Positions 4,827 through 41,900 of a stretch of 64,000 nt of DNA are shown here, piece by piece. A model generated the notes under the pieces. The model was given only the letters and a program-made list of their open reading frames with translations. It was not told the DNA's origin and searched no databases. The position numbers were made by a program, and so were the translations under genes. How positions within the stretch are numbered: the first letter of the stretch is position 1; every line of letters begins with the position of its first letter. Source of the DNA: Verrucomicrobiaceae bacterium (lineage in GTDB: Bacteria; Verrucomicrobiota; Verrucomicrobiia; Verrucomicrobiales; Akkermansiaceae); assembly GCA_027487435.1 (NCBI GenBank), contig JAIYDP010000042.1, positions 1 to 64,000 of the forward strand. Reading direction: 5' to 3'.

Positions 4827-5260
4827 GTCCCACTGACTGTATTAACTGTGTACTTTGCACCACTCTTTTAAAACAGTTCCGAAATTCAAAGGATGTCGAC
4901 GGCTTTTAAAGCTCTGCTCTTGAACAGCACTACAGATCTTGTAAGGCCGTCTCCCCCCTATCTAGATTGATGTTTGTAGAGAGATGATGAGCCATCGATA
5001 CACTTCATTTCCCCTGACTCGACCCAATCTCAAGTTTTCAAATGCTGCTTGGACTTTCTCAATTCATCTCGACATGATTCCGAATCCAAACATTCATTGC
5101 TTCTTCTGCTAAAGCCAACCAGTGCTCTGTCTGACATGTTCGTGGAGTCAACGGATAGGCTGGGGTTCCCCCTGCGAACAGCAGTTTCTTGCCTCCCGAA
5201 GCATGCAATCCTTTCGTCGCTTCGATTCTCGGCGATATCATCAAGTGGGGATATCACTGA
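4827..5260. promoter_or_regulatory. Intergenic region between divergent genes
   Basis: This 434-bp gap separates the start of the minus-strand XRN-like gene from the first confident ATG of the plus-strand coiled-coil gene. Open frames in it carry no domain. An in-frame extension upstream of 5261 exists (an ATG near 5136), so part of it could be 5' coding sequence of the plus-strand gene. Otherwise it should hold both promoters; I see no clear TATA element. Confidence 0.4.
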
Positions 5261-6571
5261 GATGGCTACTCCCTCCTCTCAAAAGCGGCACAAGCCCGCC
5301 GATGCAACGTATTTGCTACCTTACGCAAAACCAGCGTCATTGCAATCTGATCTCCTCCATTTCTATGCTCGAATAGAGTATGCTACAGATGACAATGTTC
5401 CGAGAGTCTTTTCTCTTCTGGAAGTGCGTCGGTCGATCGGCGACGGGGTACATCTTTCCGCTCCGTTACTGCCCCTCGACCAAACTGTCTCCTTTGCAGA
5501 GGCTTTTTCAGAATTCTTGTTATGGATAGATCCAGCTTTATGTCATACCCTGAAAGTGCGTACTGATGTGCATAATCTCATCCCGCAGGGGGCCACCGAC
5601 GACATTGCCAACATGGTGGTTGTCATGGGTGGGGCGTCTTCAGACACAGAGCACGGGGCTCATTTCTACCGCTGGGGGCTTCAATGGGCCAAGTTGAAGA
5701 CGTTCTGCAATCCTAATGACGTAGAGCTCTGAAATCGTCGTTCGAGCGCCATTCTGACCAACCTTCTTTGACGCCAAGCGTTCCATCTACGCCCTCCCAC
5801 GCGACTCGCAAAGCTGACGAGTCGACCATCACCATCTTCTCAAGCCCATCTCGATTGGAAGACACGCCAGCATTGTTTTCCGAAAGTTTCACAGATTCAT
5901 TTTCGGCGCTGGGGATCCGCTCTGCTCGAGCCGCTTCGCTGCGATCGACGAGGTTGCTGCAGGAAATATCGAACACCCCCTTTCCGGAGTCGCCGATATC
6001 GAGTTTGAAAACGCACCCGAAAGATCTGCCCTATGAATCAGAAACGAGCCAACAACGCCAACAAGCATCGGATACGCCTGCAACATCTGTGAAGGAGGCT
6101 AATCACGAAGGCAAAACGAGTAGAGAATTCCAAAGCGTTGCTTGCTCTCCTTTCAAACGGAAAGGCCTTACAGATGTCGGCGTGGAGGTTATTGACGCAG
6201 GCTCAGATCACATCAGTGATCAGCATGGTGACATCGATCACGGATTGTCAGAGAAGCATTCAGTTCTTGAGAGGGAAAAGATATCTCTAGAGGTCCGACT
6301 GGAAGCGATAGTGAAGAAGTCCGCCATATGCGAGATTCTGCTTGAGAAAGAAAAGGCGAAAAATTCGAGACTAGAAGATCAGATCCGGGAAAGGGAAGAC
6401 GAATTGCGACGACTGGAGGACGAAGGCATTCAAACACAGCGCGTCGTGAGGTCCGAGATTGCAATCAGGGACAGGGAAATCTCGAGGCTTCTCGAGGACA
6501 ACAAGTATCTGCAATCAACTCTCGAGCACATCGTACAGCTGCTGACAGGGGATCGAGAAGTAGTGTCCTGA
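5261..6571 (+). CDS. Coiled-coil protein of unknown function
   Basis: Two exons joined by a 32-nt intron (5693-5724; phase 2, CTAAT near the 3' end) give one continuous protein: HFYRWGLQWAK runs into ALKSSFERHSDQPS. The N-terminal ~150 residues form a globular segment (HFYARIEYATDDNVPRVFSL). A Ser/Thr/Pro-rich linker follows, then a C-terminal coiled coil of about 110 residues rich in Glu, Lys and Arg (KEKAKNSRLEDQIREREDEL). I do not recognise a family. The layout fits a centrosomal, ciliary or cytoskeletal adaptor, but that is inference from shape. The ATG at 5261 was chosen because the N-terminal text reads well from there; an upstream start near 5136 is open. Confidence 0.55.
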
Positions 6572-12702: not shown

Positions 12703-14474
12703 ATGAGGCCCTTGCTTTCGATACTTTTTGGGTTCGCTGTTCTATCATTTTCTCTCTCGATGAATATTGCAAGTACAGGGGAATATCTGCGTGTTATCTC
12801 TTTATCGCGGCGCGAAACAGCTCGAACAATGGACCTCTTGACTGCAGCCAGTTCCACAGTCTCCCTCCGTCGGGACAACAAGGACGTCCTGCCCGTCTGC
12901 CACTTCCAGGCTTCCATATCTGTAAATGGTCAGCAGTTTACCGTCATAGCAGATTCAGGTAGCTCCGATCTAGCACTTCCGATGCAACAAGCAACTGGAA
13001 CAGCAACCTCAAATCGTCTTCCGACCCCTTTAGCTTCTTCTGTCATGCCATGCAGTCAATCTTCTCAGTATGGCTGCTTGAATGGCCTCTCACAAGCCCA
13101 AATTCAAACCAGGTTTTGCTCTGACTCCTCTAATCCGACGGGCTGCGCTTCACGGTTGTACAGTCAAATGTACGACATCCCAACGTATTTCCCATCATGC
13201 GCATCAACCTTCAATGTTCCCAACTCTTGCGGCGTGTCTGCTTCATATGGCGTTAGCGGCAGCGCACAAACTGGGTGGAAAGGAATTGTACTGAATGGAA
13301 GCGTTGCCATAAGCGACTTAACGAACACTGTTATTTTTAGCGGAGTAGGTGCTGTTCTCGGTGGCGGATTCGTCCCTTCCGATGGCATTTTAGGTCTTGC
13401 GTTTCCTGCCCTCAGCGTCATGAACTCGCCATCGCCCGTGTTCTCCCTCCTTCAAGCCGCTGGCCGACCCCTCACGCTTTCAATTTGCGTCGGCGCTCAG
13501 GGGGGGTCTATGTTTTTGTCCAGCCCTCCCGCATCTGCGCTTGCAGACAACGCTGTGGCCGTCACGTTCTCCGTGGTGCAATACAACATCGGCCCCACAA
13601 GTCAGAACCTCTACTACGACGTGTTTGTCAACAGCATGACAATCGGCTCCAACGACACCCTCACAGTCTTTAAGTCCCCCTCCCCTCACTCGCACCCGAC
13701 TGACAGCGTCAGTCTCATCGACTCCAGCGGTCTTGCCACCGTCTTCACAATCGACACGGGCTCGCCGGAGATGTTCCTCTCCTATGACCTCTTCCAGTCC
13801 GTCCTTGCATACTTTTCCGCTCGTTTTTGCACGGCCATCGCCGTTCGGAACGGCTTTTATCAATGCACCCCCATCAATTTCGCCGCTGACCCACCTCCCA
13901 TTACTTTTCAAATTCAAGACGTCGATGGCATCGTTCAGTCGGTTCCTCTCTTCCAGTACGTTTACAAGTTTCAAAGCAATTGGTTCTTCTTGTTCACGTC
14001 GAGCCAAGGCAACACAAGGAACATATTCGGTGTTCCGTTCATTCAGGTCTCAAAAGGCTCTCTTGAGTTGAGACTCACCCCCGCACCTCTTAGAGTTATA
14101 CAGTCACGTTCTCCCAACAGCAACCCGCGGTCCTCTCCCTTTCGCTTGCCTCAAGCACGTCAGTGTGCGGCTTCCGTTTGCTCGTTTAACGCCTTCGTTG
14201 AGTTGTCAGGATTCGACCCCGCGGTATTTGCGCCTGTGGGAAACCTCACCTACATTGCGCCCCCTCCAGAGCCAAGTTTGTTGTCGAATCCGACTCTGAT
14301 TGTGCAGATGTCCCCATCACGTCGCTGTGGTATTTTTGGGTTGGAATTGCGCTCGCTTCCATTTTATTCATCGCCCTCGCGTGCAAGCTCGTGTCGGCGT
14401 CGGCTAGTCGCAGGCGAGACGTGAACCTCAACTACGTTGCGTTCAGACAGCCTGAACGAGTGGCCAGCCCTTAG
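12703..14474 (+). CDS. Membrane-anchored pepsin-like aspartic protease
   Basis: The start is MRPLLSILFGFAVLSFSLS, a signal peptide. Two catalytic Asp motifs typical of a bilobed A1 protease are present: ADSGSSDLALP near residue 83 and FTIDTGSPEMFLSYD near residue 350. Between and after them are SDGILGLAFPALS and FGVPFIQ, which match conserved parts of the fold. A 32-nt intron (14276-14307) shifts the end from a meaningless frame to one encoding a transmembrane helix (WYFWVGIALASILFIALACK) and a short Arg-rich cytosolic tail. The product is thus probably a surface or vacuolar membrane protease. Numerous cysteines in the insert after the first lobe suggest extra disulfides. The gene converges on the LysM gene. 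Confidence 0.82.
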
Positions 14475-20288: not shown

Positions 20289-21759
20289 CTAAGCATGAGC
20301 TACATTTGCGTTTATAGAGTGCGCAGCTTTCAGCAGATTCTGCTCTAGATGAGACTGCTTCTTGCTTGCCATTGACGCCTTTCCGGCTTCGACGAAATAA
20401 AAAACCACCATTACGAAGCCGTTTGCCAAGAGGAGGAATCCAAATATTGAAGATCCCCAGGGATACCCAAGACCCGCACCTCCTACAAGCGCGGAGCCCA
20501 GAAGCGGACCCAAGATCTCTCCAATAGCGATGAAAGAGTTCATGACGCCAGACACAACTTCAGTCGCATCTGCAGCCGACGTCTTTCCATCTTTTGTCAT
20601 GCTCGTAAGCATATCGGGCATGGTGGGTACTAGTGCCATCCCAGCACCAAGGCCGAGGAAGCATAGAGACACAATTTGCATCCACACCTAACGGATCAGG
20701 TTGCTCTGCGTCTAATCATACTGTTCTGGGAAGGAAATCGGCGATTGGAGTGGGCCCACTAAGCAAGTAACCCAGAGCACATGTTCCTAGACCAGCGATG
20801 ATGATTGGCTTCGTTCCGATACGGTCCGACGCGTAGCCCATCAGCGGCGCAAACACGGCATACACTGCAGATGACGCAAGGAAAAGGAGGCCTACTTGTC
20901 CTTCGGACAGTTCATAAGGTGGCTGTGACAAATGCAATGAGAGCGTCGGCTCGATGAACCCCAATGCGCTCATCGAAAACATGACCGTTATGCCCGTTGC
21001 CAAGATGCCGGGGTTAGTCAGAATGCTGCGCCAAGGGACGTTATGCCCCCCACCTTTGCCGACTTCAGATGGAGGCAGGACGAAATAAAGAAATGCAATT
21101 TGCAAAACAAAAGTGGAACCCATCACGATGAAGGGCAATGAGAAGCCTCCAGACTCGTACAAAAAGCCTCCAAACGGCGGACCCACCATCATCCCGACCC
21201 TGAGCGGGTTAGAGCGGCAATTCCATTCAAACCCTCCGAACGTCTCGACTGTTCCCATCACTGTGCCTATATTCTCCGAGAATTCTCTCCCCAAAATGAT
21301 GAGAACTGCTGTTTCGGAGCACGCCGCCCCAAACCCTTGAATGCACCTGATCACGAAACAAAGCGCAGTGAAGAGTGTTAAATCATCTCTAGCCTTAACA
21401 ACAAATCCGAACGCAAACGTCGTGATACCTTCGATCACTAATCCCAACAAAAGCAGTCTTTTCGGACTAATTTTCCGCGAAAGGCTCGCTGCCGTATTAC
21501 AAAACTCCGTGTAAAAAACGATTTACAATCAAAGGCAACACTTACCGCAAATAGGAGACGAAATGAAAATGACAGCAGCAAACGCGGCGAAAACAAGCCC
21601 AATCACGGTTTCAGACATCCCAATTGCCTTTGCTTCTGTGGGGAAAAAAGGAGCCAAGAGGGAGTACGAAAGGTAGGCAAACAGATTCACCACGTAGAGG
21701 GCGAATGCAGTAAGCATTCGCTTTGTGAAAAAGCTCTTGATTCGATCAATCAGCCCCAT
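20289..21759 (-). CDS. MFS transporter, DHA1/SLC18-like
   Basis: Starts MGLIDRIKSFFTKRMLTAFA. About twelve hydrophobic helices are spread over four or more exons. Landmarks are PEFF-like LLAPFFPTEAKAIGMSE in helix 1, CIQGFGAACSETAV, ETFGGVGMMVGPPFGGFLYE (the helix-5 antiporter-type 'GxGxxxGPxxGG'), LMGYASDRIGTKP after helix 8, and GLGAGMALVPTMPDML. A 33-nt in-frame intron must be removed to create the GGVGMMVGPP motif; unspliced, it reads as FEWNCRSNPLRV, which breaks the helix. A proton antiporter for an organic cation, amine or drug is likely. Its start lies only 47 bp from that of the divergent DNA-PKcs gene. Confidence 0.85.
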
Positions 21760-21806: not shown

Positions 21807-24800
21807 ATGAGCTCAAACAATGTCGTGCAGCTTCAAAGGGTACTAAGCCATCTTACGGATGGGTCCAGGAGATCTTCAGACTTTTCTCTTCGGATAGCAG
21901 AAATGAAGGGCATCTTCGCGAACGCAGGCAGCGTCGACGATTGCTGTAAGAACGATCTACGTGAATCGTTGATGCAGAATCCTCTGATTATTGTTTCTCA
22001 TTTGACATCCTAGTAACGCTATTTGCTGTTCTCCTGGACGATGACAACAAATTTGCAGATATAATTCTGGACTCTTGTGGGGACGATAAAATTTTTGCCG
22101 AAGGAAAATCGGAGGCATACAATCTCATTGCAGACGTAGTCAAAACTATCGGGATTAAGTCTCCCGACTCACTGAAAAGCGTGATTGTACAGAGCCATGA
22201 TTGCCTTCTGCCATTTACACTAAGAGGCCAATGGAGCAACGAGCTTCGACTTTGAGACATCTTCCGCTGTCAAGGAGTCTTTTCTCAATCTCATGGGCTC
22301 TATCGTGAAATGGTCATCGCATCTTGTGAAAGCGAACCTAGTATTGAGATTGTAGTGACGCCATCAAGTTTTTTGATTTCGCGTAGGGCGATTTCCCAAG
22401 CGGCCGCACCAAAGACGAAGGCTCCTGCGGGAGGTGCTCAGCATGTATTAAAGTGTCTCACTACCATCAGTTCGCCACGCTGCTGTGAGGTTGATCGGGC
22501 TGGTCCTTTTGCAGTTTGGCAAGGATATCTCTGGTAGCGAAGCTACAAAGGCTTGCTTGACAATCATGGACTGCCTGCGGATGGGCATGGAAAACGATGC
22601 GCAGCAAGTGGGATGAATGGCTACGTCACTGATGTCGTTCTCAGGTCATCGCGGGTAGCATTGACGGGGCGAGATTCGCACTGCAATCGGGGCATTCTCG
22701 GATATTTGATTGCAGCATGCTGGAAAAACTTTATGTCGTCGCTATGACATCCTTGGCAATGATCAAAGAGTCGAAAAGGTTTTCCGTTCAGAGAGGTCGC
22801 CCTCCTGTTGCTTGTCTGACGAGCTCAGCGGCTCTAAAGCTGCTTTCAAAACAGAGCTCTTGCTTTCTCCCTTTCATTGCAAAAGGTGCGGAGGAGCAAG
22901 TGGTGCGGCTTGTGCCGCTTATCAACCATGTCAATAGAGACATCAGAAATGCTGCGTTTCCGGCACTGGACTCTTGGATTGAGACTGTCGATTTTCTCGC
23001 TATTGTTTTTGATTGATCAGGTTGCGAAAGCGCTGTGTGAAGACAAATCAGACGGGAGCAGAAACACGTTCAAGGTATCCTCTCGTTGCGTCGGTCACCC
23101 CTTAACTCCAGGCTCTTTTGAAACTCTTCACCGACGTCATTAAGTCCCCGACGTCTTCTCAGAGGGACTTGTTCATGGGCATTCGCTGTCTTGGCAAGCT
23201 CTCACTCACCATTCGAACTACCCTCGGTGAGTCTGAGTGCAGTCGATTACTTTCAGCACTCATGGACTTGGGCGACAGAATTTTATCATCGTACGAACCC
23301 CCCCCATCCCCTTTATTTTTCAAGATTTCTCATCGCGTAGGCAAAGTAGCGAAGAGGACGTTGCTTACCACCTCCCTAATGTCGTCCAATCGTACACTTC
23401 TTTTTTGGACGGGCTCTCTTCTCCCCCATTTTTTTTCGCCAAGTACTTGTCGCGTCTGGCGTCAAGGCTGGTTGCGTCATTTCCTGCTGCGGCCCTCAAG
23501 AAACGCGATGCTTTCGCTCATGCTTTTCGAAATCTCTTCACAAGTCTGCTGCACCATCAAAGCGTCTTTGATGAGGTTCACGACACCTGTGGTGAGACCG
23601 CGAGCTGACCTGGCATTCACAGCGACAGTACGAAGCATCGTTTTGCTTGCGTGTTCTCCATCGATTGCACCTGACAAAGACCTTGTTGGAGACTCTGTTA
23701 AAGATTATACTCAGCTTGTCATTGTGCTCGATACAGTGCTGGATGTGTCGTTTCAAGAGAAAACGAGAGAAAAGCTACTTGATGTAATTTCTGAAACGAT
23801 TGAGAAGCTTGACCTGTCTTACGCTATCAAAGCAGACGACAGCACAGACTCTGCAGATGCGTCTGCAAGTGCACTTCTTGTCTCCAAACCCGCAGACGTG
23901 GCTGCCTTCGCCGCACTCGCCCAGTTCGCGGCTCGGGTCTTTGAAAGCATCTCCGACTCCGTCCTTCGAGTGTGGACCTTGCCGCTTCTTCGGCAAGTGT
24001 TGTCCAGGTCCCAAGACTTCCCATTGGTAGAGCACTGCGCTATGCGTTCTCTTAATGTGCAGATCAGTGGACTCTATGACATCGCTGCCATCTTGCTGAA
24101 GAATTTAGAAAAATTGATAACAGGCTCAATGCCTTGCGACGTTTCAGACCTTAGCTTCGTCAGAGACTACGTGTTACATCTTTGTTCCAGGCTGAAGAGA
24201 TTCCATGACACGCTGCAGCAGGCTGCTGTGGCTGCAGTTCTTTCTTGCCCGCCCCTCTTGTTGTCGCAGGCTGCGTTCCTATCTACTCTAAGACTTGCAT
24301 TGGTTCTTGGCGTTTCGTATCCCTATTTTCGCTTTATATTATTTTTGTTTTACATCAAAATTGTCATTTGCTACCGTTCCTCCTTAGCCCGAAGTCATAC
24401 TCCTACGGCAATTGGCGCAATCAGTGCCCTCGAGCGCTGGACAACAATGCCCAACTCGCCGGCGTTGGACGATGTCCTTCCGCTGCTGCGCGAGTACATT
24501 AAGAATTCTTCGCACGGTGCCGTAGAAATGGCAACACCCCCACATGAAGCCACATCGAAAAAGCGAAAGCGCACTGACGCCGCCTCCGTTGCGCGTTTGC
24601 TCGTCGTGCAGGAGGTGGTTTGATGCAATGGTCATTGATTTGCCAAAGGTTGATAGCAACAGCGTGGCGCTTCGCGTTTTGAGATTATTGGGGAGGCTGG
24701 GGTCACGAAGTGCGGCCTTGATATCGGGGGATGAGAGCAGTACAAATGCCCCAGCGATGAGGGCTTCAAATGTACTCCCGATGACATTTGCTTTTTCCGA

Positions 24801-27800
24801 CGGAGCATCGCTGACGCTGCCGATGGGTATTACTTTGATGTTCTGCAGTGACGAGGCAGATTCTCTCATCCCAATCGTCTCTCAGCTGGCCTTGTCAAGC
24901 CAAGACCGCCAGACAAAAGTCTCCGCATGCGAACTCCTCCACTCCCTCATCGTCGCACTCGTTGGCCAGCATGGCACAGCGCAGGGCCTGGAGCCAATGA
25001 AGCAGGTTTGTTTCTGCGTCGAGCAGCTCAGTTTCCTAGGATGTTTTCAACTCTGCCTTTGCTCATCTTTTTCCCGTTCAAATCCGCCTTGCTGTCGATG
25101 CGGATTCTGTAACGAGACGCTTGTTTGGGACCCTCCTGTTGCAGCTGCTCCGTTGGTTCAATTCGGACATACCGCAGCTCCGGACTCCCTCTGAGCTTCT
25201 TCTTGAGGCTCTCCTCAGCGCCCTGTCTGAGACGACTGACGGACGCATCCGCGACTTCACGTCCGGGTGCGTTGGTGAGTATCTGAAGTGGATTCTGAAG
25301 ACTATTCGACCTGTGAGCTCGTCTGATATCATCTCATACATCAAAGGAAGAAGTTGAGTCGTCAAAAGTTTTAAAGCGCCTCTTGCGCCGGCTCTACGCC
25401 CTCCTTCGCCACCCCACCACGTTGAAGCGTCTTGGCGGACTAACTGCACTATACGCGGCGTTGGAGCCTTTTGCTGCCTCTGCTCAAGCTGCTGACATTT
25501 ACATTCTCGAAGCGTTTGGCGCGTGCCTCTTTTCTGCGAACCTGGCAGATGCAGATGATTCATCAATTGGTACGTTGGAAGCTTGTCAACGAGCTGCCCG
25601 TCGATTGCTGCGTATTGTCAAAGCGCATGCAGACATTTTGCGCCGCCCTCGTGGTGGAAAAGTCGATCGGCGTGGGTTTGCAACTTTAAGCGATCTTGTC
25701 GAGAACATTGTTCAGGTGGGTCCCCTTCACTAAAAAGTTAACGAGTGCAAGGGTTGCGTGTCAGCTGGACGTGCGTTCCGTGCTGTTGCTGCAGACGTCC
25801 TTCCAAGTCTTCTTAAGGAAGCCAATGGTGGGCGCAAGGGCTCCACGTTATTGATCATGTCAGCGACCTTCTCGAAGCCTTCGGAATGGTTTTTGACTGC
25901 GTGTGGGCTGAAACACTTGAAGGTCTTTGTTGTCGCCCTAAACGAGTCGACAGTTCAACCCTTTGTCCCAACGACTGCGTCGTTCAGGGCGATTGCTGCA
26001 GCATCAAGTTTCCTGCATTGGTGCGTCCGGAACTTCTTTATCATAGACTGTCAGTTCAATGAAGCTATTGCGAACATTAGCTTCCTTCTAGACCTGGCAG
26101 CTGATGCAGGTTCGACCCCTTGCGAGACAAGCATAGTTGCGGAGCGAATGGATGCCTTCTTTTCGCTTCATTTGCTCCTTCTTGAGGGTCTAGCAATCTT
26201 TGGGGACCGGGCACATGGTGCAAACGTTCTGAGCGGCAGTCGCGCCTCTCATCTCGTGTCTGCTGTCATGGGTGCGAACGATGAACTGCTCTGGGAGCCT
26301 TCACGCCAACGGATACGACAGTTATGTCAGCTTCTGATTGACGCAACTTGCGTGCGAGCACCCATTGCAAATGCGCTCAACTTCCTGTTGTCGTCGGATG
26401 ATTTTTTGCTTCGATCAGACTTCTCAGGTACTCTTTCTACTAATGACCACTCAACCCGCAGCTTTCACCCCTCCTCAGCTTGATCGAGCTGCGGAAAAAC
26501 TGCACAGATTCGCTGAAGTTGTTGGCTCTGGCTTTTTGATGCGCATGGGCGTCTCTTCAGCCGCACTTTCTCACGATCTCATAACTTCAGCAGCGCGCCT
26601 AGTGGAGCTATCACCGTCCATTCCCTCACGCGAACGAGTCGGCAACCTCCTTCTCAAGATCTCTTTCTTGTTGTCATTTCCTGTCTTGAAGCTTTTTGAC
26701 GTGCTCGACGGACCTATTGGCTCTGCGTTTTCCTCCGCTTATGGGCCAACTATCGCTGCGGCTTTGGCATCGGGATTTGAACAATGCTCGAGGGAAGTAT
26801 TCGCGAGGCTGGGTAATCCGACGATTCCGTCTCTCATCCTCGCCATCTTGAAGACCACTGGCTCCTCATCCAACAGGTCTCTTCGGGTTGGAGTCGTGAA
26901 GGAGGCGCGAGATTGAATCGTCATTTCATCTGATATCCCAGATGCTCAAGTTTCTACCGCAAGTCTCGACAGCAGTTGCTGGCGACAATGGGGCTGGTAT
27001 GAAATTTTCGAGTGATTTCTTGTCCGCCCTCTGCGCTGCTGACCCCGCGTGCGTTGCTCAAGCAAATGAAGCTCACAAATGCGTAATATTCATCCACGCC
27101 ACGCATAATTCTACCAGCTTCTCGACGTCACACAACGGTTGATTTCCTCTGCCACCAGCACGTCCCAATCGACAGAGGCGATTGTTGCCCTTGCGCCCGT
27201 GTTGCAGGTGGGTGCTCCGTCAGCCTTTTTGGATTTCTTGTCCGGCCTTGTGGAAGATCTGCCTGTGCGGTCGTCAAAATTGACGAAAGGATCGTCTGAG
27301 TACTTTGCGTTCAGCTCCAAACAAACTGCATTGCTATCCCTTCTCAGGTCTTGTTCCGTGGCTGAGATTTTGCCGTTCTTTTACTCAACTCTTGCACAGT
27401 CGGACCACATCATGCGATCTGACGTCGACGCTGCTGTCTCTCAGTTCGTCAGAAATCTGTCAGAAGGAGAGGCGAAGAAAGCCTTTCGATCGACGCTGGC
27501 GTAGGGCCTTTATACTATCTGCTTGACCCCACAGCTTTATCTCCTCCCGTTCGCGACTTGACGCTGCGGGGCTCAACCTTCGAGTTTTTTTTGCCGATTC
27601 TTTTTTGCCTCAAATTGCGTCGTCGAATTCGACAGCAGCTTGGTTCTCTGCTGTCATTTCAGATGACTTCCCCGTCATTTTGTCCACTCTGACATCCTCT
27701 TGCTCCGACCCTTTTCGAGTCGTCGAAAGGATTGCCGCACAGCGCGTTGTCCAAGAACTGTTCGCGCGGTTATCGTACGACGAGATCAAGCAGTTCGTGA

Positions 27801-30800
27801 ACCCTCTCTTCGTCGCAGCCACCAAATGCCCCACATCAGTTGGTAATGAATTCACAAAGCACTTGATCAAAATCTCATCATCTGTGAAGTCCACCTCCCT
27901 CCCACATCCTTCGACGTACCCCACACAATTGGATTTGCTCCCCCCTTTCCAAAACACCATCTCCCTCCTCTTCTTTTCGTCCGCTTACTCGGCGCTGTGT
28001 GCTGTCATTTCCCGCACACAAACCCGAGAAGAGTTCTTCAGCAAGTACCTCTTGCAAGACCCCCCCTGGGCAAATATTGTTGACGTCAGCTCTGAGCTCC
28101 GCCTGACTGTCGAGACGGACTTCGTCTTAGCGCAGCAGAAGTCAGAGGCTGCAACAGGCGTTGGTGGACCTGAAGGGGGCGTTTACGTCTCGTCGCAGAT
28201 TTTGGAGACGTCTTCATTGTCTCAAGACATCCGGGTTCTTGAAAGCGCGATCGCGCGGTCGAAGTCTGTCACTCAAATGTCGGTTCGTGGTGGAGCACTT
28301 GAACTTGATGATTTGAACCGAATGGCCATCATGATTCCTTTGCTGCGTGCTTTTGACCGAATGGAAGAGATGTTTTCCAAATCATGGAACCCACAGAAAC
28401 CTCCGGATTGGATCGTCGCGCTTGTGGGAGAGTTAGGCTGTGCCAATGCTCATCTCAATGTTAAGGCGTTCCTCCTCCGTCTCATTGTCAACAAGGAGAA
28501 AATGTTTTCGACTTTCAAGCAGACAGTAGTGGGTCCCATGTGCGCTGCAGTCGTGGATGTGTCGAAACCGCACTCTGGTGACCTAAGCCGTGCATTCAAT
28601 TATCTCCTGCGAGACGTCACAACTACTTTGACAGCATGGCAAGTTGATCTCGTGGCCGAACGTGACCGTCGCGCTGGATCTGACCTATTGGTACCGTATT
28701 TTTGCTTTATTTATTTATTTGTGATAGGAGTTTCTTTGTCAGGTTATTCCTCATGAGCGCCCTTCCATTATGTCAGCGAATGTGCGCTCCGTGCGCGCTC
28801 TCTTTGCGCTGTGGAAAAAGAGCGTCGTAGCCCCAGCTGTGCGCTATTCCTGATCGTGTCATTGACTTTGTCAGAGCGTTATTCTTGCATTTGCTCAAGG
28901 CCATCGCAGTGCCAAAGCAGATCAACTGTACCGCCTTGCGGCGATTCAGATCTTGTCAGCAGCACTTGCGAATGGCCACTCGTTGTCCTCCATCTTCCCC
29001 TCACAATCGGATCGCGTCACGTTGGTTGAGCGACTTGTCGCAGGCTTCAATGACGACCGCTCAAGGGTTGTCAAGACGTCTTCTGCGGCTGTTTGTGCCC
29101 AGCTTCTCGGCAATGACGATGACTTTCTCTCTCTCCGCAAACACCTCACTGCCGCCGTCGCCAAAGCGCACTCTTCGAATCGCTTTGACGACCTGGTTGC
29201 ACTTATCGCAGGTGCGGCAGAGTTTGCCCCGGATTTTGTTTTCGGAACCCTCAAGTACGTTGCAGATATATTTCCAAAGGTGTCGGGGACTCTCCGCAGT
29301 AGCATCGTTCGAGCATTGGGAGCTAGCTGCGCCAAATGTGGGGACTTGGGGCAGTTTGTCGCTCACATTCGTCCATTCCTTTTGCGCGCAGTGAATGACG
29401 ACGTTGGGGCAGCAGCCACAGCCGAGGGGCTGAGGCTTGCGGCTGCAGCAGCTCCTCAGTTGACAGAATCTGAGCGCAACCAAGTTCTTATCTATGCAAC
29501 AAACGCTGCGTCTAGCCCCACCGCTCAGGTCAGAGCGGCAGCGATTGATGTTCTGATATGGCTCTTTGACAATGACGCCCACGGCAGAGATGACGGTGCT
29601 TTGCGAATGGCGCTGGCCTCATTTTGCGATGACGCCGATGACTCTGTCCGCTCGAAGGCATGTTCGTTTTGGGTCAGTCGTGATAAGTTGAGATTTGGAG
29701 CAAAGCTACATGACCGCATCTGCGGCATGGCAGCAGCTCTAGATGTTGCGGACATCGACACTCGTTGGCTTAGCATTTTTACGAGGGTGTTGATGGGTGG
29801 TGTTGTTGATGCGGACCGCGCCCTCTTCACACGTCCGCTGCGAGAATGCGCTTTTGCAACCATGGTCATTGATCCAAACTTCTCTCTTCCGATCTCATCA
29901 AGCTTGCCGTTGTCCATCTCAGGGAGTTTGTCCCAAGGTGACATTGCAGTTGATGACCCCTCGTTTGCTCCTCGATTCGTTGCGGCCACACAAGCGGCTG
30001 GTGTGTCCATGACCCAGACAGACTTCTTCACTTCACTAGAACGAATCACTGTCACGTCCGAGTCAGTTGAAGTTGACGCTCCCATCGCGGTTGGTGGCCG
30101 CGAGCGATTCCGGCCAGTGGCTGCTGCTGAAGCGGAGAGCTTTCATGCTCGTCGCATGCTGAAGCTCGATACGGCGAAGCGGAGGGCTGCTGAAGTGGAG
30201 AAGGAGGGTCGGCACAAGGGAGTGACTGTGGCGAGGACATATCGCGTGGGGGAGCTTCCTGACATTGAGATCAAGGCCTCGGACGTGTTGAACCCCCTCA
30301 GCTCTCTCCTTTCGCGCGACGATCAAGTGGCGAAGCGCCTGTTCGTGTCCCTGGTTCGTGCTCTCAACGACTCCCTGCCTCAAGCATCTCTCAACGCGCT
30401 CTCAACGATATTTGAGGAAATGCTATCTCGCCAGACTTCTCGAGCCCCAGATCTGGCTGCGGCATTACTCGAGGCTGCAACCGATTGTCCGCAATTGCGA
30501 GTCGCGCCCCTCACTGTGATGCAAGCGTCACTGACTGTGGGGCACTACAGAGATGGTGCCGTTTGTTTGGAGGCGATGATAATGCGGAAAGTTGATTCTC
30601 TGCCACCATCATCGCGGGGAAGCCATTCTTCCAAAGCTGCAGTTGCAGACGACGTTTGGGCTCAACTAGCGTCTTTGTACAGCGCCATGGGGCAATACGA
30701 CGTCGTGCGAGGGCTTACTGAGAAGTTTTCTAAGCTCGACTTCACCAAGGCAGCCCTTGAAGCTGAGGTCATGGGCGACTATGAGGGTGCGTTGCGGTCC

Positions 30801-33800
30801 TACGACTTGGCGCTAGACGAGCTCAAAAAACGAGAGGATACTGGGAACATGTGGACTGGTAAGGATAAACCGTGTGACATGGAGGTGAGTTGAAACCGCT
30901 GCTGTAGCTAACGCCCTCAGATCCACGCCTGGGAAATGGGTCGTATCGCTGCGTTGCGTCTGTGCCGTCGGCTGAGCGCGGTGCGCGAGGCTTTACGCCA
31001 TTGCGTTGACGAGCCTGCGTCTTTGTTTGGAGAGGAGAGTGGCGAGTTGCTTGGTCGAGATTTGTTTGGTGCCATTGCGTTTGATCCCACCACACCACCA
31101 GATGATAAGGATCGACTCATGCTTTCTCAATTCATTCGCACCCATTCGACGGGAATCTCCGTCCGCCGCCGGGCAATTTTGGAAGGTGATCTTGCAGCTG
31201 AGGTTGCGACTGCGCACCTCGTGCGTGGAGATGTTGAGATGGCGCTGCATTCTGTGCGCACAGCCTACGCTCGGGTCTTGCTGGAGTTTTCAAAGTCCGG
31301 TAGCGCTGGTGACGACCGCGCGTGGATGCGGCTGCGGCTACTTCCTCGTCTGTTTGACATTGAGCAAGTTGGAATGGCCTTGTACGCTGCCTAAAGCTGA
31401 GCCGTCTCACCTCTACAGACTGCGGAGCGACATCGAGGCCTCTGCAGAAGTAGCGTCGGACATTGCTGCACGAATGCCTCACGTCCGATTGGACGATGCG
31501 TCGGTGTGGGAGGAGGCAACCCTTCGCAAAGTCGTGTTGCTGAATGCGCTGGAGAGGAAATTCGACAGCAGCAACGTACGTAAGTTGACGCTGTCTCTGA
31601 CTTGGCACAGAAGAACGCCATTGACGCTTCGAAGACGTCTATTCTCCTAGAGGCAGTCCGCGCGCAGCGCCGAAGGAACAATTTTGTTTCGGCAGAGGCA
31701 AACTTAAGGATGCTACTTGAGTCGCAAGACTCGACGCGAAGGGTTTTGTTCATTGCAGAGGCTGCCAAGATGAAGCTAGCGAAGTTTCTAGTGCGGCGGA
31801 GCGGCGTTGACGCGTGCCCATCGTTTGTGAAAAGCTTGGAAGGTGTCGTCAAGACGTTTGTGCGTTTTGAGGAAGTCTCTTGTTGACACTTCAGGAGAGC
31901 AAAATTGAAAGTCCTTCTGCACCCCATCTCTCTCTCTTTCATTCCGCCCTCGCTAAATCACTTGCACATATAGCTGCGGTGACCTCTTATTCGGACCCCA
32001 CACTGCAGACTCAAGCGTATGAGCGATTCAAAGCATCTGTAAAAGCGGCTGAAGACGTCGGAGGAGCAGTGCTAGCCAAGAGGCACTTGCAGCTCTCGAT
32101 GTTCCTGAATGCGGTCATTTCATCACAGAGTGGTGGGGATAACGCCATCATCAACAGCTTCGTTCGAAGTGTGATGCGCGCTATTGAGATGGGTAATCCA
32201 CGCGCTGCGCTCCTGTTCCCGCGCGTTCTTGAAGTTGTCGAGAGTTTGCCCCTGCTGCATGCTGAGTTTGCCTCAGCAGCTGAGCACGCCCCCGTGTCGT
32301 TGTTGTCGAGGTGGAGGACGCAGCTCATCGGGTTTCTTTTCTCCGGCCTCAAGGCCAAGGTTGTTCCTCTCCTCGTCAAGGTGGCTGTTGCTGAGCCTCA
32401 AGCCTTTTTCTATGCGTTTAACACGGCTGCCGAGTCGTCTCCCAATCTGCGGAAGGATGCAGCATTTACGCTCTTGTTTCGAGAGATGGAGCGGCCGGTG
32501 GGGCGACTCCAGCGCCAATTCATTTCAGCTTTGGAGGCTCTGACCCACCCCGAATTGACTCTCAAGCAGCTTCTAAACGAGATGAAAGGGTGCGTTTCTC
32601 GTCGAAAGCTACATGACGCAAAAACGCGAGCCGTTGCAATTGTTGCTGAGCTCGACGCGATGGTAGCCAGAGGGGCCCCTCACCACGTCAAGATCGAACA
32701 AAAGCTGCGAAAGCTGGTTGACAAGACGTTTGGTGAGCGGCTGGAGAAGGTTGAGAAGCTGGCTGAGGATGCTCTAACAAATCTCATCACGACCGTCGTC
32801 CAATTGGCTGCAGACGCAAGTCGCTCTGCTGCCGCTGGCATGCGCCTTCCAGTCGCACATATGTCTGCTTTTTTGGCAGCATATGACGGCTCAAAGCCGT
32901 CCGAGGCAAAGCTTGAGATTCCTTGTCACGGCGGGACCAATGGCGTGGACCTTGTTTCGGTCAGTCCGGAGCTGCTGGTGCTCTTGTCAATGCGTCTGCC
33001 GAAGCGGATCATCATGAATGGCGCAGATGAACGCGAATACGCGTTTGTTGTCAAGGGAGGGGAGGATCTTCGTCTCGACGAACGCGTCATGCAAATGTTT
33101 GACATCATGAACAACCTCCTCGCATTCGATGGCGACTGCTCTCGTGACCGCCTCCGCGTCAGAACATACGGCGTTGTGCCAATGTCCACCTCGGTCGGAG
33201 TGCTCGAGTGGGTCGGCGGCACCCGCACGCTTGCAGACCTCATCGAGTCGCAGCTCACATCTTCGACAAAGCCAATCTTTGCCAAGGCTGGAGATCCGAT
33301 CAAGGCGCTGCACAAGGACGTGAAGACCGTTGCAGACGTTGCTCGACTTCGTGCCGCTGACGTTGTCGCAGCGTTCTCAAAGGCTGAGGCCTCTGTCCCA
33401 CAGTCTTACCTCATGTTCTAAATCTAACCTCTGCAAGGTTTCTCCTTCGCAGCGCCATGACGAGCAGCGCAGCATCGCCGCAGAAATTCTTTATGGTCCG
33501 ACAGACCTTCTCTCGATCAATTGCCGCAGCCTCTATTTGCCAATACGTCGGCGGCATTGGCGATCGGCACCTAAAAAATATTCTCCTTCATGAAGCTAGT
33601 GGAGAGGCTGTTTTCATCGACTTTGGCCACGCTTTTGGATCGGCCATGCAACGGCTGCAAGTCCCGGAGCTGATGCCGTTCCGCATGACGAAGCAAATGA
33701 TCTCTGCCCTTGCGCCGCTTGACGCAGAAGGGCTGCTGCACTACAGCATGGTGCGCACACTAGCGGGTCCACCGTTCTTAGCCCCCTTCGCTCACGTTGC

Positions 33801-34332
33801 CAGCTCTGAAAAAGTCCCGCTCATTGCTCTTAGCAGCTCTCGGTGTCTTCGTCAAAGACCCTCTCATGTGTGAATATTTCATATCAGACTGAACTCCACA
33901 GGGATTGGGCGACCTTGCCGGACCGACATCCCCAAACCATCAAAATGTTAATTCGAAGGGCCTTTCTCACGCTACAGTATTGCTAAAGAGAAGCTGGAGA
34001 TCGTAGGCATGAAGCTTGATGGCGCCAATAGTGGCATTGTCATGGCAAAGTCGTTTAAATCCGATTTTTAATTCTTGCAGGAGGCGGAGCTGCGCCAAAC
34101 CTCTTCGACGCACAGGAACTCACCCGTACTCCCCATCCTTGTTTCGATCTCCAAGTTTGCTCACATCGGCTTAATTCTGACCCTATGCAGGGGTGACCCC
34201 TTGAGTTCGTCTCGAGCTCAACTACCGTCGCACGGATTGAACCCGACTGATCAAGTCCGCGCTCTCATGGACCACGCGAGGGATGCCAACGTGCTTGGGC
34301 GAGCTTATCAAGGATGGAACGCTTGGGTCTGA
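21807..34332 (+). CDS. PRKDC: DNA-dependent protein kinase catalytic subunit homologue
   Basis: A giant (~12.5 kb) PIKK gene with many tiny introns. The N-terminal two-thirds is alpha-solenoid (HEAT-like); from about 29.9 kb a FAT domain follows (MGQYDVVRGLTEKFSKLDFT). The kinase starts near 32.9 kb: LSMRLPKRIIMNGADEREYA, then VVKGGEDLRLDERVMQMFDI, then GIGDRHLKN (catalytic loop) and DFGHAFGSAMQRLQVPELMP. The 'KGGEDLR' and 'VPELMPFR' strings are characteristic of DNA-PKcs rather than TOR, ATM, ATR or SMG1. A 38-nt intron between VPQSYL and AMTSSAASPQKF is fixed by the family alignment. The gene ends with a FATC domain (HARDANVLGRAYQGWNAWV) at the extreme C-terminus. It acts in the nucleus with Ku in non-homologous end joining. 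Internal exon limits upstream of 28 kb are only approximate. Confidence 0.88.
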
Positions 34333-34471: not shown

Positions 34472-35683
34472 TCAACAAACAATTCCAGCGAGCCAGAGTG
34501 CAAACCTTGCCGCAAAGCGGCGTTCCAACGACAGGCCAGCGCGGGACTTGTCGCCAGCACAAGCGAGCGCAAATTTCAACTCGGTTGCAGCATTTGGAGG
34601 AGGGCAAGTCGCAGCCCACTCCTCATCTGATGTCACCGAGTTCAGCGCCATTATGTGATCCCTGTCTGCTGCAAGCTCGTCAGCGTTGGCACTCAGGGCT
34701 CCTCCGCAAGCACTCACAAATGACGTTAGAGCTGATCTAAACTCTTTCACGTTAAAAATCATTCTTTTATGGTTACCCTCAGGACAGTAGCTGATGGACT
34801 CCGCTTCTGGAGTGTCATGCAATGTGGATGAATGCAACAAACCCTTGCCCAGAGAAAATCTCGCATGGCACCAAAGTGCTTCGTGGCCTGGGTACGCGAG
34901 GATAAGCGCTTTTGTGAAGCGGCGCTCGCTCCTCAACACCTCAAACGCTAACCCTCTGTCACTCTCATTGGACATCAAGGCCGAGATAAGACGCTGACGA
35001 TAATGCATGCCACTGTGATCTGACACGTGCTGATGTGTCCAAAATCTTCCATTTCGAAGCTCCTCCATGATCAAGCTGGCATCCATGTTCAAAATGAGGT
35101 CACCGCGGTAACTCCAGCAAAGGTAGTTCTTGGGATAGAGTTCGGCAGCTCTGGCACAGACAGCAAGGTCTTTTCGGATTTCTATGCTGGAAACGCCTCG
35201 AAGCCACCTCCTGCCGCGTTAACAGCGCGTATTCCGAAATACCTGTGTGCCCACGCTTCAGAACTTTTGGGATGCTTTGTAAAAATTAGATCAATGAGAT
35301 CCCATTCCTCTTGAGCTGTGACTATTTGCGAAATGATGAGCCTCTTTCGTATGTTCCAAGCGGTGTAATGGTCAGCATTGATCATCAGCAGTGTTCGAGT
35401 GAGGGATGCGAGAACTCCTGAGTCTGGGCATTGCCCTACGATCATGAGAAACGAGTTTTTCATTAATACGCAGTCTTTCCAATCGGAGCGCATCCGTAAC
35501 GTAGCTGAAAAGGTCCACTACTGCCGTGTAGCAAATGGCAAGCCTGCAGTCAGCGACCTGAACCGGAGACGAGTCGCTGTCTCCAAGGATAAGTCCAAGT
35601 TCCTTACTAACAGAATGAACATTACAAGCGACAAGCAAACATTTCTCCACTTGAGAACGCTGACAAGATGAGTGCTTGAACAT
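34472..35683 (-). CDS. PTAR1: Protein prenyltransferase alpha-subunit repeat protein PTAR1
   Basis: Tetratricopeptide-like PPTA repeats: INADHYTAWNIRKRLI, then KHPKSSEAWAHR, AELYPKNYLCWSYR and WTHQHVSDHSGMHYRQRLI. The last block is typical of PTAR1, the alpha subunit of geranylgeranyltransferase III, rather than of FNTA or RABGGTA. A 32-nt intron after EAWAHR removes an out-of-frame stretch and reconnects RWLRGVSSIEIRKDL. The first exon starts MFKHSSCQRSQVEKC. The enzyme adds a second, geranylgeranyl group to selected targets such as the SNARE YKT6. The gene converges on DNA-PKcs (about 140 bp gap) and diverges from GCN1. The exact stop after LWLAGIVC is less certain. Confidence 0.8.
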
Positions 35684-35966
35684 CCATGACTCTAGATTAC
35701 GTCTAATAGTCTTTAGAAAGAGGGAACTTAAGAAAAATGCAGCCTTTTTCTGAATTGGCCGAGAAAAGAAAAAGAAATCCTCTCCAATCGTCCTAAATTG
35801 ATCAAATTTGTTGCTTGAGTTTTTCTCTTAAAACTTCATCTCCTTCCGCTAACTTGTGAGTAAAAGTGCAATCGCTTTCTCCTTGAACGAATGGGTATCA
35901 GAGAATCCACTGAACGCTGTATGTGCGAAAACTTTTCGTAAAGACCCATTGCTCAATTTTACAATA

Positions 35967-38900
35967 TGAGCGAGGAGACGCCGGAGACGCTCGTACAGAG
36001 GCTCAGGAAGCTCCAAGCTCAGAGCATTGATGGTTCCCGTACCTTGCAATGAGATTGACTCATGATCAAGGTGCAACCTTGGATGACTTAAAGCCGCTTC
36101 TGAAGGCAATTTTTTCCAACATCCAATTCAGTGACGACGCAAACGTGCGGAAAGCCTCCAAAGCAATCCTTGTTGCAGTCCTTTCGTCGCCTATTCCAGA
36201 AGTGCCTAGTCTGGTTGCTGCTGGGATCGTGCAAGCCTGCAAAGGGGCTTCATTACATGGCCGCACACGCTTGGTCTTGTTGGAATGGGCGCTCGAAACA
36301 GCCGGCTCCATGAGTAAGAGAAACACTGCTGCAGCCATGGACAAGTCTGCCGTTGCTCTCGTGAAACAATCCGCCAAGATTCTCCAACTCCTTGAGAGTT
36401 CTTCAAAGTCTCTGCAAGTGACTGGGCAACGCAGATTTTCTCAGTTTCTGCGGAAGGTTTTCGTCTTGCAGTCAAAGGAATCTGATGCCCCAGCATCCCG
36501 GTTTGATCCCCGCAGCAGTATCTGCGGTGCATCCTGCCGACGGCAGTTTGAACACCCCTTTGGCCCGCTCCATCCTCTTGGTACTCTCTTCGAAGCCATT
36601 CCTCTTGTCGCAGCACCAAGTCTCAATGCCCTATTTAGTATCATTAACGTTTGAGGTTGCTTTGGAAGAGATCTTCACGGATAGCGTGTTGAAGCAGGCT
36701 CAGCCCACGTTTGGCGACGCAATAGATGCATTTTCGGCTCTTCAGAGCCATGCATCGCGCGAGCTGTTCTCATCTGTATATGTAGGGACCATTTCTCGGC
36801 TATTAAGGAAAACCGGAGATATCGCGGGATTTCAGATTCCTAAGTTGGTCTCGAATTTGAGCATTGACTGCAGCGCATTTCTTCCACACCTCATCGGACC
36901 TATCAAAGAGAGATGTAGAATGTCCTCTGATTCTGCTCGTGCTGATGCCCTCGACATTCTCCGCGCCTTGCTGAAGCAATCCAGTGATCCAGCCCCTGTC
37001 GTGGATGCCATCCATTCCATCGCCAGCGGCTTGGCTGGTATCGCCTTTCCAGCTAATCTGACTTAACAGGAAAGGACGGCGCTGTTGGGTTTTGGTATGA
37101 GCGCTGCGGACTCATCGCTGCGCTTGATGTTATTGCTTCTTCTTGTCTCTTGAAGGGAATCGTTGGTGCACTCGATTCCGTCGCTGAAACTGTCCGAGTT
37201 GCCGCGGAGAAAGAGAGTGCTCTTTGGTCGGCGAACCTCACCAATGTAGTGAACGAAATGGGTCGCTGTATCGCCCTTGGTGCACTGGGCAACATCTCGT
37301 TTCGCCGCGAGTGTGGCTCCACCTCATCAGCAGTTTTTAAGACTCTTGCGCTCTCGATAGCCTCCGTGTCCGATGCTATTCGCAAGGCAGCTGTTCGAGC
37401 GGTCGTGCGAGTTCTCGAGAGTCTCGAATGGAGATCTCAAGTATCCGTTTGAGTTCACATCCTCATCCAGCAGGCCACAGATGTTGTGTCGGCACTCGTT
37501 GCCGTTGTTAAGAGCGCTGCCTCGAAACCTCTCTATCGAGCTGACGCAGTGAAGGCGCTGCATTCTCTTGCACGTATTTCCCTTGCTGATAGCAAAGCAG
37601 GTCTAGAAAGTACGTCTCTCACTGAAAAGGCAGATGAAAAATTGGTCGCAGATAAGTTCTGGTCGTTGGCTTTTGCGGTTGATGCGTTTTGGACGTTGTT
37701 GGACCTCACGTCACTTCAAAATGAAGATGTTCTCTCCCTCGCAGCGTTCCTAGCGGTCGCATTCGGGGAGCTCGTGAGCAATGATTAACGCCAATAATTT
37801 GGCAGGGATCTCGAGTGGTTTTGTCGTCCACTGCGCAGCTTTCAGCAGTTGCCTCAACCGTTGTAGCTCTCTTGCTTGTCAGGCCGTACGCAGTTCATGC
37901 AAAGTTGGCACCTCTTGTCACTGCTTTGAAAGCCTTTGCTCCAGTTGTTGTGTCTATCGCCGTGGATGTGATGTTAGATAGAGCAGCAATCTATCGTCCC
38001 GATTCCGAGGTTCCGAGTTCTGGTGTTCTCCTCACTCAACAGGATGAGCAGGCCCTTTCTCCCTTTGTCTTTGCACGTGCCGTTTTGTCCTTGGCAAAGG
38101 GTTCGTTTGAAGCTGCTGTCATTCCGCGCTTTGCCGTCCTCTGCCATGCTTCTGCCTCTGGTATTTTTGCAACAAGTTGTGGTCTGACTAGTGCAGGCCC
38201 AGCAGCGCAGAACGGAAGGCTTTTTGAGGCTGCTCTCGGTGTCATGGCAGGCTGCGATCACTCCCTTGAATTTTTGGCAGGATATGTTAGCCCAATTGCT
38301 CTGCGTGCGATGGATGACATTGAGAATCCAGTTCCAGTGAGCGGGTAGCACATTCTTATTATGCAGTCCATTCCAATTCGCTTGGCCAGCATCCATGCCG
38401 TCGAGTCCCTCTCCAGACTTCGATACCACCAAACCCTTGGCGTCATGCTCCCGTATCTCTCTAGGTGCCTCGCCCACGCAGACTTGTCTGCATTAAGTCC
38501 CCGTGATTTCGAAATATTTCATACTCCTGATGGTCAACTCTGCAAAACAGCCCGTGGGTTGCTGTCATTTTGAATAACTATGAAGTTGAGGAGAGCGGAT
38601 ACACTACCGTTATTGTTGAAAGCAAAAACGTCAAGAGATCAAGAGCTGAAGCAAAGTTGTACTCGTATGAGGACGAGCTCTGGGAAAGGAGCATGCGGAA
38701 GAAGGACGAAGTCCTTGAGCAAGTTCAGGCGTTGTGTTAGTCCACTGAAGCTCGCAGCCCAAGTACAAAACCAAGCAGGAGGAGGAGGCTTACAGGGCAC
38801 GGCTTGCCAGTGAGAATGCTGTTCGAAACAACGTCCGCCGAGTCCGGAATCGGATTGTGAATGCGCTCCAGGTGGATTTAATTGGTTGGAGTCTTCTCAC

Positions 38901-41900
38901 GCCGTAGTTATTCACGTCTTTGGTCGTAGGCAACCCAATTGAGGCGCATGCTTTCATTCCAGACCTCTTTCCTCTCGTCGAGCCCCTGCTAAAATTCCCT
39001 CTTGTCTCGACGTCGGCGTCCAACGCCGTTTTTGCTCTGAGCAACTGCCTCCGATCTGCAGTCACATCATCTTGTCTACCGAAAAGAATTCAGAGAGCGC
39101 TTGCATCTGCAGTCATTGCAGTTCTGTCTGAAGAAGAGAGTACCTTGGTAAGGAATATCGTTTGAGTTTGATCCTCGAAGGACGCGTTGCTGCAGTTCGC
39201 CATAGAGGGGTCAATCACAGCTCTTTCAGCAGCTCTGGGGGGAGCACCACTCATGCGCGAATCATTTATATTGGTCATTCCTCTCTTTAGGCAGAGCTTG
39301 CTGCTGCCGATTTCGACCGAGGCGTGCGACGCCATCCTCTCCCTCATTCTAACCCAAGCCGCGACTGCCCACTTGGCCAATGCCCGAGATGCCGTCGGTC
39401 TTCTGACTGCTGCTCTCGTCAAGAGGCCTGCGCTGATTGCCCTCGGCGAAAAGGCTCTTTTGGCCACGTCTGCTTTATCGTCTGCAGCGTGTATGTCCAC
39501 AGCTTTGCCAGGCCTTCTCGCCTCGTCTGCAAGAGTTCGATTGGCAACTCTGAAGGCCTTAGAGTGCACTCAAGGCGCCCTTTGCAGTCCCCTCTCGCCT
39601 CAAATAGACTCGGCCTTCCTTCCACGTGTATTTATGCTGCGCCACGACAGCAATCCCGATGTGTGCGCTTCGGCACGAAGAATTTTCGACGCAGAGCGTG
39701 CAACGGTTGTTGCTGGCGAGTTTGCGCTGGAACTTGTCGCTGCACTGAAGTTGTCTGACTCTGATATGCGCCTCTTTGCTGCGAATGCCATCGCTGAGCT
39801 GCTTTGTCTTCATCCAACTTCTTCGCGTGACGTCATCTCCCAGATTTTCAAATTGTTTGTCGAAAACGCCGGCCCTTCTGTTGATAGCGTCAAATATGAG
39901 GCGACTACAGATCGAGGTGTCACAGCACGCCTTGGAGTTGCGGCTGCCCTGGCGGCCATCGCGCCTGCCATCGACGGGGAGCACCTCCCCGTGATATTCG
40001 CCTTCTTGACCTCTCGCGCCTTGTGTGATGCGAATGCGGATGTGCGCGGCGCCATTTTGGTTGCAGGTAGCAAGCTGATCGATGCTCATGGCCAGCGCCA
40101 GGTCGGCGTGTTGTTACCTCTTTTTGATAGAGTCCTTGAGCGCAACGAAGACACCCATTCTTACGATCTTGTTAAAGAGAATGTCGTCATCCTCATGGGA
40201 GGTGCGGCCAAGTTCTTGTTGCAGGAGGACTCTCGCATTGCAATTGTCATGAAGCGCCTCGTCGATGCCCTTCGCACGCCGTCAGAGATCGTTCAACGTT
40301 CAGCCTGTCGCTGTATGGCACAGCTCGTACCGATGGCCAAGCCGATGGCAAAGGACCTCGTTGCAGACCTGTTGTCCCGGTTGCTGACCAGTGAGAAGTT
40401 TGGGGAGCGCCGAGGGGCTGCGTTTGGGTTGTCTGGGATTATCAAGGGCATGGGCATTGCGTCTCTGAAGCTGTTTGATATCATGTCGCAACTTCAGACA
40501 GCTGCCTCTGATAAGAAAGACGACAAGCAGAGGCAGGGTGCAATGCTTGCGTTTGAGTGCTTGTCGGACACTCTCGGCCGCCTTTTTGAGCCTTACGTTA
40601 TCCACATCCTCCCACTTCTCCTCGCTGGTTGTGGTGACTCTGTCCCGATGGTCCGTGAAGCAGCTGATGGAGCGGCCAGAGCCGTCATGGCGCAGCTGTC
40701 AGGGCAAGGAGTCAAGCTGGTCCTTCCTGCTCTAATGGTTGGACTTGAGGACCGCTCGTGGCGGACAAAAGCTGCCTCTGTTGAGCTTCTTGGTGCAATG
40801 GCCTATTGCGCCCCAAAGCAGCTCAGTGCTTGTCTTCCAACTGTAGTGCCCACATTAGCAACAGTTCTCGGTGATTCACACTCTCGCGTTAGGGAGATGG
40901 CTCGAGAGGCTATCCAACAAGTTACAAACGTAATACGCAACCCCGAAATCAAGGAGCTTGGACCCATTCTGATGGAAGCTTTGGACGCTCCTGATATGAA
41001 GACTTCGTCCGCACTGGACACAATTATGGCGACCACATTCATAAATGCCGTTGATGCCCCTTCTCTAGCACTCCTCGTCCCTGTCGTTGCGAGAGGTTTG
41101 AAAGAGCGAAATTCTGAAATCCGCAAGCGCTCTGCTCGCATTGTTGCGAACATGTGCTCTCTTGTAGCTGACGCCAAGGACGTTTCTCCTTACCTCCCAC
41201 GACTCCTCCCGGGCGTCCGTGCGACGCTTGTTGACCCGCTGCCTGATGTTCGTGCAATAGCTGCGACTGCACTGGGTTCCCTTGTAGTGTCTCTTGATGA
41301 GACTCAATTCGCGGAGCTACTGCAGCAGCTCATTGAGAATCTGCGGTAATTACATGACTCTGCTAGCGACTGACCTCTTCAGGGCTGATGGACACAGCGT
41401 CGAGCGCTCAGGTGCCGCTCAGGGCCTGAGCGAGGTGCTTGCTCATTGCTCTGACGAAAAACTAGACCTCATCCTGCCTGAGCTTCTGTCGCATTCTGCT
41501 TCAGTCAAGTCCAATGTCCGCGAGGGACATTTGACTCTGCTAATTTACCTCCCTGCCGCACTGAGAGAGCGGCTTGAGTCTCGCCTTCATTTTGTTCTTC
41601 CATATGTTCTCAAAGGACTTGCAGACGAGCTTGAGACCATTCGAGACGTTGCTATCAAAGCGGGCCACTCGATCATTGACCACTTTGCCGAAACTGCATT
41701 ACCAGTGTTGCTCCCCGCCATCGAGAGTGGGTTGTTTGACGGCAATTGGCGCATTCGACAGTCATCAGTGCAGCTGCTTGGTGATATTTTGTACCGAATC
41801 ACCGGCACCGCTTGGAAGGCCCTCAGCACTGAAGCTGCTGACACTGGTATATCGAATCAAGCAAAAGGCAGAGCAGTTCTGGATGCTTTAGGCCCTCAGC

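Follow-up and report, generated by a model that had tools for sequence, protein, structure and literature searches.

The window analysed here is a stretch of 64,000 nucleotides (bases 1-64000 of contig C455, which is 76,612 bp long), and it carries a gene that, on its sequence, is almost certainly a conventional DNA-PKcs orthologue of eukaryotic origin with very short introns, on a contig that was binned with a bacterial genome. The gene, the order of its domains, its kinase motifs, a YRPD signature and, within the linker that precedes it, three SQ/TQ sites are all present in the window. The coordinates of the features are given in Table 1.

Table 1. Features of the window and of two other contigs of the same assembly (positions refer to the window unless a contig is named; aa positions refer to the predicted DNA-PKcs protein).
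Feature	Position	Strand	Evidence and remarks
DNA-PKcs (PRKDC) gene	21807-34332	+	Gene model with fixed ends and homology; 28 predicted introns, 11487 coding nt, 3828 aa
DNA-PKcs N-terminal domain (PF20500)	22605-23681	+	aa 212-510; 85.3 bits (cut-off 26.1); E 3.6e-24; best stretch is profile 167-449 of 810
DNA-PKcs CC1-2 (PF20502)	25058-25757	+	aa 947-1156; 126 bits (cut-off 26.1); E 2.2e-36; profile 7-222 of 809
DNA-PKcs CC3/NUC194 (PF08163)	27620-28642	+	aa 1728-2068; 87.1 bits (cut-off 28.9); E 1.5e-24; profile 17-384 of 389
DNA-PKcs CC5 (PF19704)	28682-30023	+	aa 2082-2504; 118.6 bits (cut-off 25); E 3.7e-34; profile 2-429 of 692
YRPD signature, YRVGELPD	30240-30263	+	aa 2577; fits YRxGxxPD; preceded by a K/R-rich stretch
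FAT region (PF02259)	31435-32230	+	aa 2951-3192; weak, 15 bits, below cut-off of 24.2
PIKK kinase domain (PF00454)	33035-33762	+	aa 3461-3695; 156.3 bits; E 1.6e-45; carries VVKGGEDLR, GIGDRHLKN and IDFGHAFGSA
VVKGGEDLR	33047-33073	+	
GIGDRHLKN	33553-33579	+	
IDFGHAFGSA	33616-33645	+	
VPELMPFR	33661-33684	+	
FATC	34237-34326	+	aa 3798-3827; 21.5 bits, below Pfam cut-off of 25.3; aligns with human DNA-PKcs up to last residue
Eukaryotic aspartyl protease	12703-14421	+	Pfam
MFS transporter	20719-21522	-	Pfam; family not eukaryote-specific
Prenyltransferase-alpha repeats	34475-35218	-	Pfam
GCN1/EF3-type HEAT-repeat giant gene	~35966-43963	+	Pfam in two ORFs; 11 predicted tiny introns; next but one to DNA-PKcs
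Intronless 320-aa protein	57959-58921	+	Gene prediction; looks several-pass membrane; no Pfam match
ATP-dependent DNA ligase fused to upstream metallo-hydrolase (RMMBL) part	C24 1105-3540	-	Single ORF (≥812 aa) that was judged bacterial
SNM1A/Pso2-like metallo-beta-lactamase nuclease gene	C503 ~4988-5313	-	DRMBL match; several short pieces

Gene Structure and Introns

When the ends of the gene model were fixed at the ATG at 21807 and the TGA at 34332, one readable gene with 28 GT-AG introns was obtained. A complete gene between exactly these positions had been proposed in the preliminary description, and the possible ATG-to-TGA reading bears out both ends. The predicted introns of the fixed-end model were 23-59 nt in length (median of 35.5), and a strong branch-point motif, a feature that the model rewards, occurred in 17 of the 28. 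The prediction with free ends extended from 22717 to 33873 with 19 introns and was without the first and last exons. The splice boundaries around 33796-33901 and 34039-34080 of the predicted gene are uncertain. Introns of 20-75 nt were allowed in the gene models, and lengths of 26-50 nt together with a branch-point motif were favoured; hence, the intron statistics are partly built in. Early gene models with introns of up to 110 nt (median of 46 nt) were rejected, as they fused adjacent short introns. Over the well-scored genes of the window, 40 introns of 23-57 nt (median of 35) were predicted, often with a CTRAY-like branch point near the 3' splice site, by a model that favours such introns.

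Domain Order and the YRPD Region

Pfam analysis of the 3828-aa protein revealed the DNA-PKcs_N, CC1-2, CC3/NUC194 and CC5 domains above their cut-offs and in this order, followed by the PIKK kinase domain. The N, CC1-2 and CC5 matches each spanned part of the Pfam profile, though their scores exceeded the cut-offs. The kinase motifs were intact in the translation of the gene model, and the four motifs from which a DNA-PKcs had initially been recognized were all located on the + strand (Table 1). The protein ends in ..LGRAYQGWNAWV, and the counterpart in human DNA-PKcs is ..LGRTWEGWEPWM.

The YRVGELPD signature was preceded by ..VART; of the first human YR, the R alone was kept (ART-YR). In passages of PMC8549938, YRxGxxPD is said to be invariant in DNA-PKcs, and NUC194 is described as a family signature and as important for Ku binding; in the human protein, the Ku80 C-terminus is bound by CC3/NUC194. 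The YRPD motif is also defined in part of PMC10419180, according to which the Y of the first YR is replaced and the R retained in green plants; the R-only remnant is thus common to the window protein and the green-plant DNA-PKcs. Three SQ/TQ sites (aa 2474, 2493 and 2501) were found in the linker at the CC5 end, where the human protein has the ABCDE cluster. A site-by-site match to the human ABCDE cluster amounted to a 4-bit stretch and is not secure; the linker is much shorter than the human loop. When the linker and the YRPD stretch (300 aa) were compared with PDB chains, the sole matches at E values of up to 1 were DNA-PKcs chains (6/6).

Relationship to Human DNA-PKcs and Other PIKKs

The window protein resembled human DNA-PKcs (PRKDC) in the order of N, CC1-2, CC3, CC5 and kinase, with FAT and FATC recognizable in the alignment, as well as in YRxGxxPD, the kinase motifs, the presence of SQ/TQ sites in the linker and the C-terminus. 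It differed in its length (3828 aa versus 4128 aa for the human protein) and in the much shorter linker before YRPD. Homology to the human protein spanned from approximately aa 272 to the final residue, with gaps at approximately aa 507-740 and 1143-1728, which were unaligned. The whole protein matched human DNA-PKcs (PDB chains such as 5y3r_C, 5w1r_A and 7nfc_A) with 576 bits and an E value of ~9e-172 in five collinear stretches, four of which were significant individually. Given this value and those of the four DNA-PKcs domains (3.6e-24 to 2.2e-36), chance is excluded. Among the best 60 of 143 distinct matched sequences, the top six were DNA-PKcs constructs (552-576 bits). The scores for other PIKKs among the matches listed were 124-126 bits for mTOR, 111-115 for TOR2, 96-101 for SMG1, 99.5 for ATR, 95 for ATM, 87-92 for Tel1 and 67-70 for Mec1, and the best stretches of these chains were in the FAT/kinase part. 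The PIKK kinase domain is what mTOR, SMG1, ATR and ATM/Tel1 have in common with the window protein, at 87-126 bits versus 576 bits for DNA-PKcs. Moreover, the ORF at 31871-33421 alone scored 129 bits against DNA-PKcs and 77 against mTOR, and the last 270 aa scored 128 bits against DNA-PKcs and 67 against the next-best PIKK, SMG1.

In a kinase tree of seven sequences and 117 columns, a small sample in which the human protein was the sole other DNA-PKcs, the window protein and human DNA-PKcs were placed apart from the five other PIKKs with a support of 100. Neither the scores nor this tree placed the protein with TOR, SMG1, ATR or ATM. The identification as DNA-PKcs made in the preliminary description, for which a PIKK phylogeny had been suggested as a check, is therefore supported by the domains, the whole-length score (576 versus ~126 bits for mTOR) and the tree.

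It is extremely improbable that the gene encodes another PIKK (TOR, SMG1, ATR or ATM/Tel1) with convergent kinase motifs. The kinase domain was also matched by other PIKKs, and the identity in the kinase C-lobe was 35-41% to mTOR, ATM, ATR, SMG1 and Tel1 versus 47% to human DNA-PKcs. However, this reading is refuted because four DNA-PKcs domains are present outside the kinase, and the YRPD signature, the whole-length scores and the tree support of 100 also argue against it. A decaying DNA-PKcs pseudogene, in which short "introns" mask frameshifts and stops, would agree with the 28 introns having been derived from the sequence by a model with a preference for lengths of 26-50 nt, with the two uncertain splice boundaries and with the FATC score below the cut-off. 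This explanation is nevertheless highly unlikely. In the same free prediction, the 21 introns in the other well-scored genes of the window had a median of 35 nt, equal to that of the 19 introns in the DNA-PKcs gene; homology to human DNA-PKcs continued to the end of the protein, and the kinase motifs and the C-terminus were intact.

Neighbouring Genes

A Pfam family was assigned to seven of the ten adjacent ORFs scanned. The GCN1/EF3-type HEAT-repeat gene, the prenyltransferase-alpha repeats and the aspartyl protease are eukaryotic neighbours and support the eukaryotic reading of the DNA-PKcs locus. An AAA ATPase and a redoxin were also among the adjacent ORFs (Pfam), neither family being eukaryote-specific. 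The Rfam search over the window gave no matches at gathering scores.

Chimeric Bin and Host Genome

The assembly that contains the window is a bacterial bin plus eukaryotic contigs, not a protist genome. Its size is 9.39 Mb, compared with 2.9-4.4 Mb in nine of nine genomes of the same genus, and it holds an uninterrupted ligase ORF judged bacterial beside eukaryotic proteasome genes, indicating that the bin is chimeric. The kinase exon of DNA-PKcs was found in one of 57 genomes searched, namely its own assembly. The assembly is entered among prokaryote genomes with a listed completeness of 82.38 and a contamination of 0.61; the latter value is listed despite the eukaryotic contigs C455, C487, C500, C392, C137, C190, C279 and C503. 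When stretches of 38 contigs (two of which read as N) were compared in composition and intron motifs, bacterial and eukaryotic contigs did not separate cleanly, and these statistics supply no counts here.

Since the eukaryotic contigs lie in a bacterial bin, the host genome is sampled only in part. Proteasome matches occurred on five contigs of the assembly as seven pieces, six of which were above the cut-off; by eye, the translations look like eukaryotic 20S subunits, with interrupted frames in four of the five. Eukaryotes have 14 20S proteasome genes. From five genes of 14, perhaps one-third of the eukaryote is sampled. Very roughly, division of the excess bin size (5-6.5 Mb) by 5/14 gives a eukaryote genome of ~14-18 Mb, provided that the bin contains a single eukaryote and hardly any other foreign DNA. 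The gene had originally been assigned to a compact protist genome. Compactness holds for the locus, with introns of ~35 nt and predicted gene spans filling ~65% of the window; the genome part does not stand, the assembly being a bacterial bin with eukaryotic contigs. Light-harvesting proteins (PF00504) gave no matches in the assembly, which is incomplete for the eukaryote.

End-Joining Partners

A search for Ku, ligase IV and Artemis had been suggested in the preliminary description, and none of them was found in the assembly. The Ku family gave no matches across the assembly, in which the eukaryote is only partly sampled, with a control that was positive in B. subtilis; Ku_N also gave none, and its control was silent everywhere, so that this result carries no weight as evidence. 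The single ligase match in the assembly was judged bacterial, and no eukaryotic ligase IV was found; the match (on C24) was rejected as ligase IV because its uninterrupted ORF and its fusion point to a bacterial origin. The DRMBL search for Artemis gave two matches in the assembly, which form one gene on C503. This SNM1-family gene was missed by the gene predictor, and two pieces were taken from raw frames; they scored 77 bits against SNM1A, 58 against Apollo and 36 against Artemis. The gene was accordingly rejected as Artemis, its closest match being SNM1A. The PI3/PI4 kinase search of the assembly gave four matches, of which two came from the DNA-PKcs gene, one from C487 and one, below the cut-off, from C55; TOR was not seen among them either. 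TOR is present in nearly every eukaryote. At a sampling of 5/14, four independent genes would be jointly missing approximately one time in six. With a bin that is both chimeric and incomplete, the missing Ku, ligase IV and Artemis say little about the eukaryote. The strong reliance on end joining suggested in the preliminary description is not supported by these results.

A Ku-independent role of this organism's DNA-PKcs, serving signalling instead of end joining, would fit the lack of a Ku70/80 match in the assembly. It is nonetheless very unlikely, as coverage of the eukaryote in the assembly is perhaps one-third (five of 14 proteasome genes), the Ku_N control was silent and the Ku80-binding region, CC3/NUC194, is conserved. 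The practical point is that eukaryotic contigs inside a bacterial bin forbid calls on the presence or absence of the eukaryote's repair genes from this assembly.

Implications for DNA-PKcs Function and Distribution

By orthology, Ku would recruit the conventional DNA-PKcs encoded in the window to double-strand-break ends via the CC3/NUC194 region, and the YRPD/DNA-end-binding region would hold two ends in long-range synapsis. The protein would be released or switched when the short SQ/TQ linker ahead of YRPD is phosphorylated. That it is an active kinase, depends on Ku and forms a synapsis is inferred, as is whatever importance end joining has for the organism.

Loss of classical end joining has been reported to go with genome compaction, with mean genome sizes of 29.2 Mb without and 667.9 Mb with this pathway; the link was judged on three components, presumably Ku70, Ku80 and ligase IV. 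It is possible, although rather doubtful, that a eukaryote of only ~14-18 Mb keeps a full-length DNA-PKcs against the reported link. A compact genome that retains DNA-PKcs would be a mild exception at most. The genome of Ostreococcus is compact, at ~13 Mb.

The DNA-PKcs of green algae, for example Ostreococcus, are mentioned in part of PMC10419180, and passages of PMC8549938 report the protein from arthropods, oomycetes, plants, Mucoromycota, Chytridiomycota, protozoa and amoebae. By these descriptions (PMC8549938, PMC10419180), the DNA-PKcs of protists, oomycetes, chytrids, amoebae and green algae are of the same kind as the window protein and likewise from outside animals. The initial remark that the gene is patchily retained outside animals was right and describes what was already known. 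Close relatives of the gene were not found in two scans of genome contigs (82 and 187 peptide-pattern matches, none confirmed) or in one scan of viral contigs (six peptide-pattern stretches, none confirmed), in which single-sequence queries reach close relatives only. The DNA-PKcs of the window agrees with the wide eukaryotic spread already described and is ordinary in this respect. It adds one more DNA-PKcs, from a eukaryote with tiny introns, in which CC3, YRPD, the kinase and the C-terminus are the parts that resist divergence.
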